From assembly GCF_014196455.1 (NCBI RefSeq), contig NZ_JACIDS010000001.1, positions 744,001-808,000 on the forward strand: 64,000 bases of DNA, read 5' to 3'. This document shows positions 25,064 through 31,080 of the stretch, piece by piece (position 1 is the first letter of the stretch; each line of letters starts with the position of its first letter). A model generated the notes under the pieces. The model did not search any database. It was not told the DNA's origin and was given only the letters and a program-made list of their open reading frames with translations. The stretch comes from Kaistia hirudinis (GTDB lineage Bacteria > Pseudomonadota > Alphaproteobacteria > Rhizobiales > Kaistiaceae). A program made the position numbers and the translations under genes.

Positions 25064-25121
25064 CCCTGCCCGTGATGGGCAGGGAAGAAAGCCCGCGATG
25101 CAACGCGTCGCGGCCCGCTTT
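25064..25121. promoter_or_regulatory. Two consecutive hairpins upstream of the yjhX-like gene
   Basis: Hairpin 1: CCCTGCCC-GTGAT-GGGCAGGG at 25064-25084, a perfect 8-bp stem. Hairpin 2: AAAGC..CCGCGA at 25088-25098 pairs with TCGCGG..GCTTT at 25108-25121. They lie 38-95 bases before the yjhX-like start. They could be a structured 5' leader, a terminator region or a small RNA. Purely structural evidence. Confidence 0.4.
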
Positions 25122-25158
25122 GTTGCGGCTTTCTGCTACCGGATTTCCGACGGACATC

Positions 25159-25416
25159 ATGAACATCTCACGATGCGAGCAGCGCGTGCTGCACGCCTTG
25201 GCCCAGGGCGGCCAGATCAACCATATCCGTGACACGAAGGGCGCCATCGTCGCCGTCGACTGCATGACGCGCGACGGCTTTCGGCTGGTCGACGGAACGA
25301 TCGAACTCTTCAAGCGCCTGAAACGGCGGCGCCTCATCGCATCCCGCGGCGGCGCGCCCTACCGGATCACCCGCCTCGGCCTCGAGGCGGTCCGCGCACA
25401 ACTCGACAACCGTTGA
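25159..25416 (+). CDS. YjhX-family toxin-like protein
   Basis: An 85-residue protein with the typical YjhX outline: the N-terminus [20 protein letters not shown], a middle [28 protein letters not shown] and the end [19 protein letters not shown]. It is winged-helix-like. E. coli YjhX is described as a topoisomerase-I-targeting toxin neutralised by the acetyltransferase-like YjhQ. No YjhQ-like gene is adjacent here: the neighbours are a small unknown gene and the hybrid kinase gene, both on the other strand. I chose ATG 25159 because it gives exactly the family N-terminus; an upstream in-frame start would add 29 unrelated residues. The ribosome-binding site is weak. Confidence 0.87.
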
Positions 25417-25509: not shown

Positions 25510-27432
25510 CTAGGGCGAATCGAGGATTTCGCGGAGGCGCAGGGCGAGTTCGCGCGCCGTATAGGGCTTCTTGAGCCAGCTCTCGTCCTGCGACAGTTCC
25601 CGGCCGGCGATGCTCGGTTCGGCATAGCCGGAGGTGAAGAGCACCTTGATGTCCGGCCGCATTTTCCGCGCCTCGCGCGCGAGCTCGTCGCCCGTCATGC
25701 CGCCCGGCATGATGACATCCGTGAAGAGCAGGCGGATCCGCGGCAGCGCGCGCAGCAATTCCAGCGCTTCCGCGCCGGTGCCGGCCTCGACTACCTCGTA
25801 GCCATTGTTCTGCAGCCGCGCGACGGCAACCCGGCGCACGCGCACATCGTCCTCGACCACGAGGATCAGTTCGTCGCCGCCCGGCAGCGCCTCGGGCTCC
25901 GCACCCGCCTGGCCGGCCGGCCCCGCCTTCTGCACGCCGGTGCTGGGCAGGAACAGCCGCACGCTGGTCCCCTGCCCCGGCTCGCTATAGAGTTGGACGT
26001 GGCCGCCCGACTGCTTGACGAAGCCATAGACCATGCTGAGGCCGAGACCGGTTCCCGAGCTGACGCCCTTGGTCGTGAAGAAGGGCTCGAAGGCGCGCTG
26101 CTTGACCTCCGCGGTCATGCCGCTGCCGGTGTCGGTCACCGAGACCAGCACGAAGGAGCCGCTGCGCACGCCCGGATACATTTCCGCATAGTCCCGGTCG
26201 AGCACGCTGCGCGAAACCTCGACCGTCAGCCGACCGCCCCTCGGCATCGCGTCGCGGGCGTTCAGGACCAGGTTGAGCAGGGCATTCTGCAGCTGCGAGC
26301 CGTCGATCAGCGCGAGATGCGAGCTTCCCGTCACCACGGTGCGCAATTCGACCGTCTCGCCGAGCGTCCGCCGCAGCAGGCCGGCGAAATTGGTGACGAG
26401 CTGCGCGACGTCGGTCGGCTTCGGATTGAGCGGCTGGCGGCGCCCGAAAGCGAGAAGCTGGCCCGTGAGCTTGGCGCCGTCGTCGGCCGCATCCTGCGCC
26501 TCGCGGAGCAGTTCGAGGATCTGGGGATCGGCCACGCGGCTCTCGATCATCTCCAGATTGCCGCTGATGACGGTCAGCAGATTGTTGAAGTCATGCGCGA
26601 TGCCGCCCGTGAGCTGCCCGACCGCCTCCATCTTCTGCGACTGGCGGAGCTCCTCCTCCATGCGGTGGCGGCTGGTCAGGTCGCGGATGAAGCCGGTGAA
26701 GATGCGCCGGCCCTGCGAGATCGCCTCGCCGACCGCGAGCTCCATCGGGAAGGTCGAGCCGTCCTTCTTGCGCCCCGTGACGACGCGGCCATAGCCGATG
26801 ATCCGCCGCTCGCCGGTGGTGAGGTAGCGATGGATATACTCGTCATGCCGTTCGCGATCGGGCGAGGGCATGAGAATGCGGACATTCTTGCCGCAGACTT
26901 CGGGGGCGCGGAAGCCGAACAGCCGTTCCGCAGCAACGCTGAAGGATGTCACGGTGCCGCTGTCGTCGACGACGATCATCGCCTCCGGCACGGTCTCGAG
27001 AATGGAGCGCAGATGCGCCTCGCGGCTCGCAAGATCGGCCTGCGCCTCGCGCAGACTGGAAATGTCGCTGTTCGTCTCGAGAAAGGCTGGCTGTTCGCCG
27101 TCCGCGACCGGCAGGGGAAGCCATCGACTCGCGACCCAGATTTCGCCACCGTCGCGATGGTGGTGGAGCAATTCGCCTTCCCAGGCGCCGAATTCCCGGA
27201 CGGCGTCGAAAATGGCTTGCGGCGGCTCCGGATAGACGGTCGACAACAACTCGTCGACGTTTCGGCCCAAGGCCTCATCGCGCTTCCAGCCATAGAGCAG
27301 CTCGGCGCCGCTCGACCAGGCGCGGATACGCCCCTCGCGGCCATGAATGACGATGTTGGCGCCATCGAGAAGGCGGGCTACCTCATCGACGAGCGGACGG
27401 CCAGCATCAGCTGGCGCGGCTCTCTCGGACAC
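25510..27432 (-). CDS. FixL-like heme-PAS hybrid histidine kinase (hFixL-type)
   Basis: 640 residues without membrane segments: PAS1 (about 15-130), PAS2 (about 140-255), HisKA with H280 in TGGIAHDFNNLL, HATPase (about 380-505, SSGTGLGLSMVYG) and a C-terminal receiver (about 520-638, Asp in LLFTDVIMPGG). PAS2 closely follows FixL heme PAS domains: ERHDEYIHRYLTTGERRIIG has H196 at the proximal heme-ligand place, and GRVVTG has R216 at the place of the distal oxygen-sensing arginine (R220 of Bradyrhizobium FixL). It is therefore a predicted oxygen sensor. The start is GTG with AGAGGTG upstream, 21 bases after the fixK-like gene, so the two form an operon. The hybrid layout matches hFixL of some rhizobia. 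Heme binding is inferred from motif match only. Confidence 0.86.
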   Translation of the reverse strand: MSERAAPADAGRPLVDEVARLLDGANIVIHGREGRIRAWSSGAELLYGWKRDEALGRNVDELLSTVYPEPPQAIFDAVREFGAWEGELLHHHRDGGEIWVASRWLPLPVADGEQPAFLETNSDISSLREAQADLASREAHLRSILETVPEAMIVVDDSGTVTSFSVAAERLFGFRAPEVCGKNVRILMPSPDRERHDEYIHRYLTTGERRIIGYGRVVTGRKKDGSTFPMELAVGEAISQGRRIFTGFIRDLTSRHRMEEELRQSQKMEAVGQLTGGIAHDFNNLLTVISGNLEMIESRVADPQILELLREAQDAADDGAKLTGQLLAFGRRQPLNPKPTDVAQLVTNFAGLLRRTLGETVELRTVVTGSSHLALIDGSQLQNALLNLVLNARDAMPRGGRLTVEVSRSVLDRDYAEMYPGVRSGSFVLVSVTDTGSGMTAEVKQRAFEPFFTTKGVSSGTGLGLSMVYGFVKQSGGHVQLYSEPGQGTSVRLFLPSTGVQKAGPAGQAGAEPEALPGGDELILVVEDDVRVRRVAVARLQNNGYEVVEAGTGAEALELLRALPRIRLLFTDVIMPGGMTGDELAREARKMRPDIKVLFTSGYAEPSIAGRELSQDESWLKKPYTARELALRLREILDSP

Positions 27433-27453
27433 GGCGCGTCACCTCTTCAAGCG

Positions 27454-28203
27454 TCAGTTCGGCCAAACCGCCTGATGGGTGTAGGCGGCGGAAGGGTTAT
27501 GGTCCGCTTCGACTTCGCCTGCAAGGGTCGTCAACTTGTCGCTCTTGCGCACGATGATCGCGTGCCGGCCGCTCGGCGAAATGACGCCGCGGCTGGTCAG
27601 ACGCGTCATGATGCGGGACACGGTCTCGATGGTGAGGCCGAGATAGTCGGCCATGTCCAGCCGCGTCATCGGCACCTCGACGACGCGCAGCGCCTGCCCG
27701 TCGCGATCGAGGCGCCGGGAGATCAGGAGGAGGAAGCTGCACACCCGCTCCTCGGCGCTCTTGCGGGCGAGAAGGACCATCTGGTCCTGCGCCGCGGCCA
27801 TCTCGTCGCAAAGCCGCGCGAAGAGCTGGGGACGAAGCTCCGGGGAGCGGTTGATCTCCTCCTGGAAGCGCTGGCGCGCGAAGCGGCGAACCTGGATGCG
27901 GGTGACCGCTTCGGCGGTATAGAGGTAGCGATCCTTCAGCGAGACGCCGATCAGGTCGCCTGGATACATGAAGCCCGTGATGACGCGCCGGCCATCGCCG
28001 AGGATCTTGTAGATGCGCAGCACGCCCTCGACGACCTCGAAGACATGATCGGCCTCGTCGCCTTCCCAGAACACCGCCGTGCCGGCCTCGAACTTCTCGA
28101 TGGGCTGGCGGCTGAACAGCCCCTGGAGCGTCGGACGCTCGGCCTCGCAGGGGACCTGCCGGACGAAGTGGTTGACCGCAGCGATCGAATCTTGGGACAG
28201 CAT
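27454..28203 (-). CDS. FixK/FNR-family transcription regulator
   Basis: A 249-residue Crp/Fnr regulator: cyclic-nucleotide-type beta roll (about 20-140), dimer helix, winged helix. The recognition helix TIETVSRIMTRL has the E-x-x-S-R pattern (E193, S196, R197) that reads TTGAT half-sites. The N-terminal four-cysteine cluster of FNR is absent: only C19, C132 and C155 are present. It is therefore FixK-like and oxygen-insensitive itself; C155 sits in ERVCSF, where some FixK2 proteins have a redox cysteine. The ATG at 28203 has GGAG seven bases upstream. A K-box-like repeat is 90 bases upstream, and the downstream gene encodes the heme-PAS kinase. Likely target: the anaerobox at hemN. Confidence 0.88.
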   Translation of the reverse strand: MLSQDSIAAVNHFVRQVPCEAERPTLQGLFSRQPIEKFEAGTAVFWEGDEADHVFEVVEGVLRIYKILGDGRRVITGFMYPGDLIGVSLKDRYLYTAEAVTRIQVRRFARQRFQEEINRSPELRPQLFARLCDEMAAAQDQMVLLARKSAEERVCSFLLLISRRLDRDGQALRVVEVPMTRLDMADYLGLTIETVSRIMTRLTSRGVISPSGRHAIIVRKSDKLTTLAGEVEADHNPSAAYTHQAVWPN

Positions 28204-28292
28204 GATGGGGCTCCACATCGGGTCGCGATGCAGCCATTTGTGGTCCTCCGCGTGACGACAGATCGATGCGCGTGTTAGCGTGAGTGCCAATT

Positions 28293-28308
28293 TGTGACGG
28301 ACTGTAAC
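28293..28308 (-). promoter_or_regulatory. K-box-like direct repeat between fixK-like and response-regulator genes
   Basis: Read on the minus strand, GTTACA-GTCC-GTCACA is a direct repeat of six with a four-base spacer. It matches the GTTACA-N4-GTTACA K-box that I recall for FxkR control of fixK in Rhizobium etli, with one mismatch. It lies 90 bases upstream of the fixK-like ATG and 36 bases before the response-regulator ATG, so it could serve both promoters. It also reads as the imperfect palindrome TTGTGAC-N5-GTAACAA. Confidence 0.6.
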
Positions 28309-28343
28309 AAGGCGTGCCGGAACGACCCGGCCAGATACGGCGC

Positions 28344-29078
28344 ATGAGCGACGCAGCTGAACGCACGGAGCACATCCTGGTGGTCGATGACGACCCCAGG
28401 ATCCGCCAGATGCTCGTGCGTTATTTCGAAGGGGAATCGTATCGCGTGACCGCCGTCGCCGACGGCAAGGCCATGCGCGAGGCGCTGCGCGAGCGTGCGA
28501 TCGACGCGATCCTGCTCGATCTCGTGCTTGGCGGCGGCGAAGACGGGCTCGAACTCGCGCGCGAAGTGCGCAGCCGTTCCGATGTGCCGATCATCATGCT
28601 CACCGGGCGCGACGACGTCGTCGATCGCATTGTCGGCCTGGAGATAGGCGCCGACGACTACATCGCCAAGCCGTTTCACCTGCGCGAAGTGCTCGCGCGG
28701 CTGCGCACCATCCTCCGGCGTCGCCGTCCCCGTCCCCTAGCCGAGCCAGAGGCGCGGCCCGGCGACGTGATCCAGTTCGATGGCTGGCGGCTCGATGTCG
28801 GCCGGCGCGAACTGCACGACGCCGCCGGCGAGGCGATCGCGCTCACCACGGGCGAGTTCGACATCCTGATGGTGCTCGCGCGCCAGCCGGGCCATGTCTT
28901 CTCGCGCGAGACGCTCATGGACCTCACGCGCAGCCGCTCTCTCGAGGCGTTCGACCGCACGATCGACGCGCAGATCGCGCGGCTGCGCAAGAAGATCGAG
29001 CGCGATCCGGCCAATCCGAAGCTCGTCAAATCGGTGCGCGGGATCGGGTATGTGTTCACCGGACAGGCCGACGACTGA
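28344..29078 (+). CDS. OmpR/PhoB-type response regulator (FxkR-like by context)
   Basis: A 244-residue two-domain regulator. The receiver has acidic pocket VVDDD (14-18), phospho-acceptor D59 in ILLDLVLGG and K109 in IAKPF. The C-terminal winged helix is of the OmpR type (LTTGEFDILMVLARQ and SLEAFDRTIDAQIARLRKKIE, ending GIGYVFTG). It is not FixJ-like. It is divergent from fixK and the hybrid FixL-like kinase, with no histidine kinase gene of its own nearby, so the hybrid kinase is the obvious partner. This is the arrangement of FxkR. An in-frame GTG at 28314 is an alternative start. Confidence 0.85.
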   Translation: MSDAAERTEHILVVDDDPRIRQMLVRYFEGESYRVTAVADGKAMREALRERAIDAILLDLVLGGGEDGLELAREVRSRSDVPIIMLTGRDDVVDRIVGLEIGADDYIAKPFHLREVLARLRTILRRRRPRPLAEPEARPGDVIQFDGWRLDVGRRELHDAAGEAIALTTGEFDILMVLARQPGHVFSRETLMDLTRSRSLEAFDRTIDAQIARLRKKIERDPANPKLVKSVRGIGYVFTGQADD

Positions 29079-29085
29079 GGCCGAA

Positions 29086-29574
29086 CTATCGGGGCGCTGA
29101 CGCCGACCGCGCCGGCGGGGCGCCGCCGCTGTCCGGCAGCCTGACCTTGGGCGTCGCCCGCAGCAGGAAGTTCACCTCCTCGGGGGCCGCATCGGCCGAC
29201 AGGGTCTGCTCGGAATCGTCGGCGAAATGGATGTGGATCGACGGGCAGCCAGCCTGCCGCGCGCAGTCGGCAACATAGCGAAAGAGCTCCTGCCCCACGC
29301 CCACGTCGTCCGCGGCGCTCGCGACGACGAAACAGGGAACTTCCAGCGCGTCGTGCCGCAGAAAATGCCCCGGCCGCACGATAATCGCGAGGCCCTGGAC
29401 GTAGCCGCGCGTATTGGAGACGACGGCGATCTCGCCAGCGCCGTGCCACCGCGAGCGCAGACAGCGATCGCGCCACCCCTCCAGATCGAGGCCCGGCTCG
29501 GACAGCCGCGCAAGCACAAAGGCGCCCTCGATCTGTTCCTCCGCGATGGGATGAGTTTCATACGCCTTGGCCAT
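29086..29574 (-). CDS. Hypothetical protein, possibly GNAT-like
   Basis: 162 residues, not confidently recognised. The centre (IAVVSNTRGYVQGLAIIVRPGHF, then VPCFVVASAADDVGVGQELFRYVADCARQAGCPSIHIHF) has the strand-helix rhythm of GNAT acetyltransferases, but no clear acetyl-CoA loop. The C-terminal 25 residues are low-complexity (Pro/Ala/Ser/Arg). It is convergent with the response-regulator gene (seven-base gap) and lies downstream of hemN on the same strand, 105 bases past hemN's upstream neighbour region. It may belong to the oxygen-regulated patch, but no anaerobox precedes it. Confidence 0.6.
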   Translation of the reverse strand: MAKAYETHPIAEEQIEGAFVLARLSEPGLDLEGWRDRCLRSRWHGAGEIAVVSNTRGYVQGLAIIVRPGHFLRHDALEVPCFVVASAADDVGVGQELFRYVADCARQAGCPSIHIHFADDSEQTLSADAAPEEVNFLLRATPKVRLPDSGGAPPARSASAPR

Positions 29575-29679: not shown

Positions 29680-31080
29680 CTAGATGCTGCGGCTGTGCCG
29701 GCCGGCGCTGCGATCGAGATAGCGATCGAAGACGGCGCAGACCGAGCGCACGAATGGCCGTCCCCGCTCCGTCACCGACACACGTCCGTCACGCAGCACC
29801 ACCAGCCCGTCATCCACGAACGCCCGCAGATTCTGGATCTCCGTGTCGAACGCTCCTTCCCGCAGCCCGAAGCGGGCGGCGATCTCGCCGAGATCGACCC
29901 GGAAGCTGCACATCAACGTTTCGATGATGGTCCTGCGCATCCGGTCGTCGTCCGAGACAGCGATGCCGCGCGCGACGGGCAGGCGTCCTTCCGCCAGCGC
30001 GTCGCGCCATTCGGGGATCCGCGTCGCATTCTGGATATAGCCGCCATCGAGCCGGCCGATGGACGAAGCGCCGAGTCCGACCAGCGCCTCGGCCTCGTCG
30101 GTCGTATAGCCCTGGAAATTGCGATGCAGACGCCCATCGCCAGACGAAACCGCGAGCTGGTCCTCGCGCGATGCGAAATGATCGAGCCCGATCTGGACGT
30201 AGCCCGCCTCGACGATCAGCGCCGCCGCGACGGACTGCTGGGTGAAGCGCTCCGCCGCATCCGGAAGGGACGCATCGGCGATGAGCTTCTGGGCCGGCTT
30301 CATCCAAGGCACATGCGCATAGCCGAAGAGCGCGAAACGATCGGCGCGGAGCGGCAGCACATCGGCGATCGTGCGGGCGATCGTCTCGGTCGTCTGGTGC
30401 GGCAGGCCATACATCAGGTCGAGATTGATCGAGTCGACTCCGGCCTTGCGGAGGCGTTCGACAGCGCGTTCCGTCAGCGCGAAGGGCTGGATCCGGTTGA
30501 TCGCCGCCTGAACGCGCGGATCGAGGTCCTGGACGCCGAGGCTGGCCCGGTTGAGGCCGTTCGCCACCGCGACGTCGACCCATTCGCCTTCGAGGACGCG
30601 CGGATCGATCTCCGCGGCGATCTCGCAAGCCGCGTCGATCGAGAACTGGCGGCGGAGGGCCACGAGGATGCGTTCGAGATCACGAGGGGACAGCGCATTG
30701 GGCGTGCCACCGCCGAAATGGATCGACGAAACGCGCGCGGCATGGCCGATGGCGTGGCGCACCAACGCCATCTCGCCGAGTAGCGCATCGACATAGTCCG
30801 AGAGCGCGCTGGAGCGGTTGGTCACCTGCGTATTGCAGCCGCAGTACCAGCACAGCTGCTTGCAGAACGGGATGTGGAGATAGAGCGAGATCGGTTTGTC
30901 ACGGTCTATGGCGGCAAGCCAGTTCCGATAATCGCCCTCACCTATGCCGGCGTGGAAATGCGGCGCGGTCGGATAGCTCGTGTAACGCGGCACGCGCGCA
31001 TCATATTTTTCGAGGAGGACCGCATCGGGCGCAGGGCTCCAACGGATGCAATCGCTCTTCAATTCGCAGGCCGCCTTCAT
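29680..31080 (-). CDS. hemN: Oxygen-independent coproporphyrinogen III oxidase
   Basis: A 466-residue radical-SAM enzyme that converts coproporphyrinogen III to protoporphyrinogen IX without oxygen, for heme synthesis at low oxygen. The 4Fe-4S motif is PFCKQLCWYCGC with C73, C77 and C80, followed by the SAM-binding HFGGGTPNALS. The length fits true HemN (about 455) rather than the shorter HemW. A perfect FNR/FixK box lies 54 bases upstream of the ATG, so microoxic induction by the nearby FixK-like regulator is expected. Confidence 0.96.
   Translation of the reverse strand: MKAACELKSDCIRWSPAPDAVLLEKYDARVPRYTSYPTAPHFHAGIGEGDYRNWLAAIDRDKPISLYLHIPFCKQLCWYCGCNTQVTNRSSALSDYVDALLGEMALVRHAIGHAARVSSIHFGGGTPNALSPRDLERILVALRRQFSIDAACEIAAEIDPRVLEGEWVDVAVANGLNRASLGVQDLDPRVQAAINRIQPFALTERAVERLRKAGVDSINLDLMYGLPHQTTETIARTIADVLPLRADRFALFGYAHVPWMKPAQKLIADASLPDAAERFTQQSVAAALIVEAGYVQIGLDHFASREDQLAVSSGDGRLHRNFQGYTTDEAEALVGLGASSIGRLDGGYIQNATRIPEWRDALAEGRLPVARGIAVSDDDRMRRTIIETLMCSFRVDLGEIAARFGLREGAFDTEIQNLRAFVDDGLVVLRDGRVSVTERGRPFVRSVCAVFDRYLDRSAGRHSRSI

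Follow-up and report, generated by a model that had tools for sequence, protein, structure and literature searches.

A probable hFixL–FxkR–FixK module in Kaistia hirudinis, and its distribution relative to FixLJ within the genus

Orthologues of the hybrid histidine kinase hFixL and of the OmpR-type response regulator FxkR have been reported in Rhizobium etli and R. leguminosarum (PMC4999443, in the part of the text available). In Rlv, the module has a role in symbiosis and induces fnrN, and deletion of FxkR9 lowers the induction of both fixNOQP and fnrN (PMC7888657, available portion). The same portion describes a chromosomal cluster of R. leguminosarum, fxkRc and fixKc–hfixLc, which holds the same three genes with fixKc–hfixLc as an apparent operon, and reports it without a K-box, the operator of FxkR, or an anaerobox, the site of FixK. 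The FxkR operator itself is described in the available parts of the two papers as a 16- or 17-bp motif only. Here we analyse a related locus from Kaistia hirudinis, contained in a window of 64,000 nucleotides (the whole stretch of DNA that was analysed; G000:C1:744001-808000, on contig NZ_JACIDS010000001.1), and conclude from its sequence that it very probably encodes a complete hFixL–FxkR–FixK oxygen-response module.

As on pRL9 of Rlv3841 and p42f of R. etli CFN42 (whose FixK is FixKf), the window has orthologues of the kinase, the regulator and FixK, with a K-box upstream of fixK, fixK followed by hfixL, and hemN a few kilobases away; an anaerobox between fixN and fixK is also listed among the likenesses. 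It differs from these plasmids in that its locus is compact (on a 1.09-Mb contig), its genome lies outside the Rhizobiaceae, its genus has no nifH over cut-off, its box has the half-sites GTTACA and GTCACA, and its genome yields no second FNR-like protein at E ≤ 1e-20, in a search that did not use FnrN's own model. From the chromosomal cluster of R. leguminosarum, compared here from its description only, it differs in having a K-box. The FixLJ–FixK circuit of congeners resembles the window in placing FixK beside a FixL-type heme-PAS sensor, and departs from it in having FixJ instead of an OmpR-type regulator and a FixK that is 36–39% identical to that of the window. A literature search for FxkR and hFixL, of limited coverage, returned no title on the module outside rhizobia, which does not imply its absence from print. 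By its function, then, the module is a known one, and the surprise lies in its place and in what it seems to have replaced. Our fullest reading is tentative, its parts together falling a little short of an even chance: in a genus without detectable nitrogenase, a Rhizobium-like heme sensor, response regulator, FixK and operator, together with an unlinked cbb3 oxidase, would have replaced a resident FixLJ–FixK circuit and its oxidase, and the FxkR operator would consist of four 10-bp half-sites and one at +52, with the 16-bp K-box as the strongest pair.

The locus and its three regulatory proteins

Open reading frames, Pfam domains and a motif scan bear out the original prediction of a hybrid kinase with a FixL-like PAS, a FixK-like regulator and a divergent OmpR-type regulator with a repeat between them, at positions 25510–29078 of the window. 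The fxkR gene runs one way and fixK–hfixL the other, across a 140-bp intergenic stretch; fixK and hfixL are co-directional with 21 bases between them and probably form one operon. The same divergent arrangement is found in the window and in its five module-bearing congeners.

The hFixL protein comprises a PAS domain (residues 26–128), a FixL-like PAS (140–251), HisKA (272–333) with the phospho-accepting His280, HATPase (377–497), and a receiver (523–632) whose phospho-acceptor is Asp572. Its FixL-like PAS aligns with solved FixL heme domains, and His196 and Arg216, which correspond to the heme residues of FixL, are kept in all 37 aligned FixL and hFixL sequences; we infer that hFixL is a heme-PAS oxygen-sensing kinase. 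By simple hydropathy it has no hydrophobic N-terminal stretch (highest 19-residue mean 1.04), in contrast to three congener FixL proteins that are strongly hydrophobic there (2.31–2.35). It is 62.4% identical to the hFixL of R. etli p42f over 635 aa and 63.1% identical to that of Rlv3841 pRL9 over 626 aa, and its identity to other Rhizobium plasmid copies reaches 68%.

FxkR has a receiver (PF00072, Asp59) and a winged helix (PF00486), and is 64.7% identical to Rlv FxkR9 over 235 aa. Many alphaproteobacterial OmpR regulators among the matches listed are 40–50% identical to it, so a domain match alone proves little, and one might suppose that a FixL-like hybrid kinase stands beside an ordinary OmpR regulator here by chance, with another signal and other targets; for the FxkR-like proteins of G604, G676 and G753 (G numbers denote genomes) the stretch read contains no match to hFixL or FixK. 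A tree of 43 regulators, however, sets 29 FxkR apart from 14 other OmpR regulators with support of 100/97, the window protein groups among them with the FxkR of R. etli p42f and Rlv3841 pRL9, and the three partnerless proteins fall outside. The original prediction had named a place among other OmpR families as the outcome that would count against it, and the regulator is found with FxkR instead. Moreover, FxkR and hFixL co-occur in the same 6 of the 14 genomes of the genus, and the K-box is kept at related fixK promoters. We therefore reject the ordinary OmpR neighbour on the 100/97 clade and regard the chance pairing as very improbable. Among the 29 FxkR, three (L046, L055 and L061) come from loci where the stretch read showed no partners and two (L048 and L057) from loci where it showed them in part, and the long rows L008 and L095 were removed before the final tree. 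Within it, the 11 FxkR from Rhizobiaceae group as a single clade (98/89), which is nested among the remaining FxkR. A clade of this genus and the Rhizobiaceae alone was rejected by the approximately unbiased (AU) test (p 0.006), this grouping having been tested after the tree was seen.

FixK has three cysteines only (residues 19, 132 and 155), and so lacks the N-terminal cysteine cluster of FNR. Its recognition helix reads ETVSR, and its best solved relative is FixK2 (4i2o) from Bradyrhizobium. Thirteen of the 14 genomes of the genus have one FixK/FNR-like protein each at E ≤ 1e-20, and G006 has two; this makes a separate FnrN unlikely in the window genome.

These comparisons support the original prediction that the organism senses low oxygen by the hFixL–FxkR–FixK route. 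Each biochemical step of that route, like the oxygen response itself, is one that we infer from sequence. At low oxygen the heme-PAS of hFixL would lose O2, releasing the kinase, and FxkR would be phosphorylated by hFixL either directly or through the hFixL receiver. Phosphorylated FxkR is predicted to bind the K-box region of the intergenic stretch and to activate fixK–hfixL; judged by the position of the box, it may also damp fxkR itself. FixK is then predicted to bind anaeroboxes at hemN and ccoN, which would serve microaerobic respiration, and its further targets probably include a cydA-like gene, a narK-type gene and phosphoketolase.

Distribution of the module and of FixLJ

The window genome belongs to family f1 and not to the Rhizobiaceae. 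The latter correspond to f23, since G046, a member of f23, matches the Rhizobium ecuadorense record behind L055 letter for letter over 16,717 bp. Within its genus, hFixL was found at E ≤ 1e-120 in 6 of 14 genomes (the window genome G000, G001, G004, G005, G007 and G013), and the same six carry FxkR at an identity of at least 69%. Since the NifH and FixJ models give sub-cut-off matches in all 14 genomes, only scores over the curated cut-off (255 bits for FixJ) were counted. By this measure FixJ is present in seven genomes (G002, G003 and G008–G012) and in none of the six module genomes, where matches of 125–213 bits stay below cut-off, as do others that accompany the true FixJ in FixJ-bearing congeners. 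The best match in G000 scores 198.9 bits, comparable with the paralogues at 198–207 bits that G008 has besides its true FixJ at 303.7. The remaining genome, G006, is a 720-contig assembly in which a fragment of FixJ lies at the edge of a contig (175.8 bits; model positions 85–201), so that all eight non-module congeners have FixJ when this fragment is counted. FixLJ congeners also show a further receiver-domain match after fixJ, for example at G003:C20:175260, G009:C1:631305 and G006:C83:496.

In the family as a whole FixJ is over cut-off in 19 of 28 genomes, the nine without it being the six module genomes, G006, G016 and G024; outside the genus it is over cut-off in 12 of 14, and hFixL at E ≤ 1e-150 was found in none of the nine listed family genomes outside the genus. 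The module thus stands, in this genus, where most of the family has FixJ. Under midpoint rooting, a species tree built from NtrX, NtrY, NtrC and NtrB unites the six module genomes as a clade (97/97) and makes the FixLJ species G008 its sister. Together with the distribution of FixJ in the family, this favours FixLJ as the older state. The pattern fits replacement of a resident FixLJ–FixK circuit by the module.

The respiratory oxidase follows the same division. ccoN is over cut-off in 11 of the 14 genomes (none in G002, G008 and G011), and in G000 it lies on a different contig from the regulators. In module genomes it is 78–86% identical to four Rhizobiaceae fixN, among them those of Rlv3841, R. 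etli (a partial match) and the R. ecuadorense genome, whereas its identity to the gene in five FixLJ congeners is 57–63%. Module and FixLJ genomes therefore differ in sensor, regulator, FixK and oxidase together, and one clade appears, from these sequences, to have exchanged the usual oxygen switch of its family and the matching oxidase for hFixL–FxkR–FixK. Within some 180 bp upstream of ccoN, TTGAY-N4-RTCAA occurs in all six module genomes and in none of the five others. Against TTGAT-N4-ATCAA, the module boxes have no mismatch in two cases and one in four, and three of the five others also have boxes with one mismatch, which leaves the contrast between the two classes weak at this site.

An alternative is that the genus has had both the module and FixLJ from early on and has lost them reciprocally, with no transfer. 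The two states are complementary, six against eight (counting the G006 fragment as FixJ), and some relatives do hold both: outside the genus, of 21 genomes that carry the module whole or in part, FixJ is over cut-off in seven, namely six Rhizobiaceae and G522, and in G046 it is narrowly below (252.8 against 255). Reciprocal loss is nevertheless unlikely, given that 12 of the 14 family members outside the genus have FixJ and the nine listed lack hFixL at the threshold given above, that the sister of the module clade has FixJ, and that the module clade has a ccoN closer to that of Rhizobium than to that of its congeners.

If replacement is preferred, the number of entries has still to be considered. 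The module genomes form two subclades, the window genome with G004, and G001 with G005, G007 and G013. Certain features weigh against a single simple event: between the subclades hFixL is 62–63% identical and ccoN 75–78%, as far apart as from Rhizobium or Bosea, and the hFixL tree does not group the window copy tightly with four of its five module-bearing congeners. Two entries, one for each subclade, would account for a tree that does not unite the six, for hFixL copies no closer to one another than to those of Rhizobium or Bosea, and for an identity between the two ccoN types below that of either to Rhizobium. Yet the six are joined in the FxkR tree (79/83) and in the FixK tree (91/84), and the AU test leaves a single hFixL clade standing (p 0.161). 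We regard two entries as possible and rather doubtful, and conclude that one entry and two cannot be told apart. The hFixL tree omits seven rows of FixL from congeners, the second row of G522, and L008 and L043.

Beyond the genus, a contig scan with generic OmpR patterns gave at least 80 named loci, a sample and not a census, of which 24 had their neighbours examined and 17 entered the trees. Among the matches listed, all three genes are present in G028, G107 and G228 from other families of the order, in a Bosea metagenome-assembled genome (MAG) and in the Rhizobiales isolate AFS080716, and in more divergent form in G599, G487 and G522 from other orders of the class; part of the module, in some cases cut by a contig end, is present in G741, G767, a Centralia MAG and Microvirga terricola. 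In the order sample hFixL reaches E ≤ 1e-150 in 21 of 397 genomes. In six of these (G148, G201, G223, G242, G260 and G296) the match starts only at about residue 119, at 50–57% identity, and their proteins may not be hFixL; for G201 the stretch read contains no match to FixK or FxkR. Of 385 genomes in the class sample, 9 have FxkR at E ≤ 1e-75, the window genome and the partnerless G604, G676 and G753 among them.

No genome of the genus has nifH over the family cut-off, against 3 of 14 control genomes (the search did not extend to nod genes), in agreement with the supposition that the organism is a non-symbiont. The further idea that the module predates symbiosis or is independent of it stands only in a weaker form, namely that the module occurs in several non-Rhizobiaceae groups and that Rhizobiaceae FxkR are a nested clade. 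Complete modules occur without FixJ over cut-off in the six genomes of this genus, in G028, G107, G228, G487 and G599, in the Bosea MAG and in AFS080716; this, and the lack of nifH over cut-off in the genus, suggests a general microaerobic switch and not a device of symbiosis. The 6-to-8 split within one genus offers a natural comparison of the two circuits in oxygen set-point, speed and output.

The K-box and a possible longer operator

The K-box lies 90–105 bases upstream of the fixK ATG and is the only match to GTYACA-N4-GTYACA in the 5,259,388-bp genome, where the reversed control pattern has none. None of 100 shuffles of the window matched the pattern, and none of 200 simple shuffles of the 330-bp region upstream of fixK matched as well. 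However, a rough estimate from base composition expects about one such match per genome of this size, so that the weight of the box comes from its place and conservation and not from its uniqueness. By arithmetic from the Rlv fixK9b start given in the available portion of PMC7888657, fixK transcription in the window would start near 28231.

Across 30 related fixK promoters (L056, whose FixK match starts inside the gene, L055 and L048, which have no FixK match, and L008 stand outside this set) the best box has no mismatch to the published GTTACA-N4-GTTACA in 7, one in 15, two in 6 and three in 2. In a shuffle control of 20 of the 30, 17 had no equally good match among 200 shuffles, and L035 had one. 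Counting against the assignment, the window box is itself one mismatch off the published motif, and L042 and L045 have only a three-mismatch box, which 7 and 16 of 200 shuffles reach. The best box of R. jaguaris fixK (L028), GTGACA-N4-GTTACA, is missed by a strict K-box search; given this, the R. leguminosarum fixKc promoter, reported without a K-box, may be worth re-examining.

The operator may be longer than the K-box, which would be its strongest part, with weaker half-sites at +20, +30 and +52. When the promoters are aligned on the box, the A and the C of the half-site core recur at +20 (in 24 and 29 of the 30), +30 (22 and 28) and +52 (26 and 27). With a matrix built from the box, and seven near-copies omitted, the 23 non-redundant promoters give mean scores of 1.1 at +52, 0.05 at +30 and −4.9 at +20, against a maximum of −6.4 in 1000 shuffles. 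The shuffles take no account of the common descent of the promoters, and several rows (L035, L047, L050 and L061, for example) have poor later half-sites, so the extension is suggestive only. That it reflects common ancestry and promoter elements, with no FxkR sites beyond the box, is a real possibility that we place somewhat short of probable: the relatedness of the promoters and a +52 element out of the 10-bp register speak for it, whereas the half-sites at +20 and +30 hold that register and the A–C core while adjoining columns vary. A longer operator would extend K-box searches, only 7 of the 30 promoters matching the strict consensus.

Predicted FixK targets and neighbouring genes

A perfect anaerobox precedes hemN (Table 1), and the same box precedes hemN in G004. 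The genome holds 28 TTGAY-N4-RTCAA sites, against one for the reversed control pattern, and a share of them is probably due to chance. Neighbours were inspected at 22 of the 28, and nine neighbouring proteins were named, three of the nine without a match. Neighbours with a role in respiration or metabolism are hemN, ccoN, phosphoketolase, a NarK-family transporter and a cydA-like gene, which at 744 bits is below its curated cut-off of 968. Two anaeroboxes, through which FixK could also control phosphoketolase, are common to ccoN and the phosphoketolase gene divergent from it (L171; G000:C2:295800-301000). At L184 (G000:C6:91300-96300) a NarK-family double transporter is encoded next to a divergent FtrB-like Crp regulator (200 bits, below the cut-off of 211), and the start of the regulator carries an anaerobox.

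Table 1. Features of the module and of the adjoining region (window coordinates)
Feature	Position	Strand	Description
hfixL	25510..27432	(-)	Hybrid histidine kinase, 640 aa; second gene of the fixK–hfixL pair
fixK	27454..28203	(-)	Crp/Fnr-type regulator, 249 aa; ATG at 28203, frame opens upstream at 28290
GTCAC-like element	28251..28256	(-)	Offset +52 from K-box start; not in 10-bp register; within predicted promoter
Candidate half-site 4, CTAACA	28273..28278	(-)	20 bp past half-site 2; suggested by the pattern in 30 related promoters
Candidate half-site 3, GGCACT	28283..28288	(-)	10 bp past half-site 2; suggested by the pattern in 30 related promoters
K-box GTTACA-GTCC-GTCACA, half-sites 1 and 2	28293..28308	(-)	Predicted FxkR site
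fxkR	28344..29078	(+)	OmpR-type response regulator; alternative in-frame start GTG at 28314
162-aa protein	29086..29574	(-)	Lies between fxkR and hemN; no match in Pfam or NCBIfam
hemN	29680..31080	(-)	Oxygen-independent coproporphyrinogen III oxidase; predicted FixK target
Anaerobox TTGATCCGGATCAA	31134..31147	(.)	54 bp upstream of hemN

Homologues of the 162-aa protein adjoin fxkR in G004 (51% identity) and, in another family, in G107 (39%); from its position the protein is a possible accessory of the module. Just beyond the end of hfixL, at 25072–25416 on the (+) strand, lies a gene for a YjhX_toxin family protein (Pfam PF09857).

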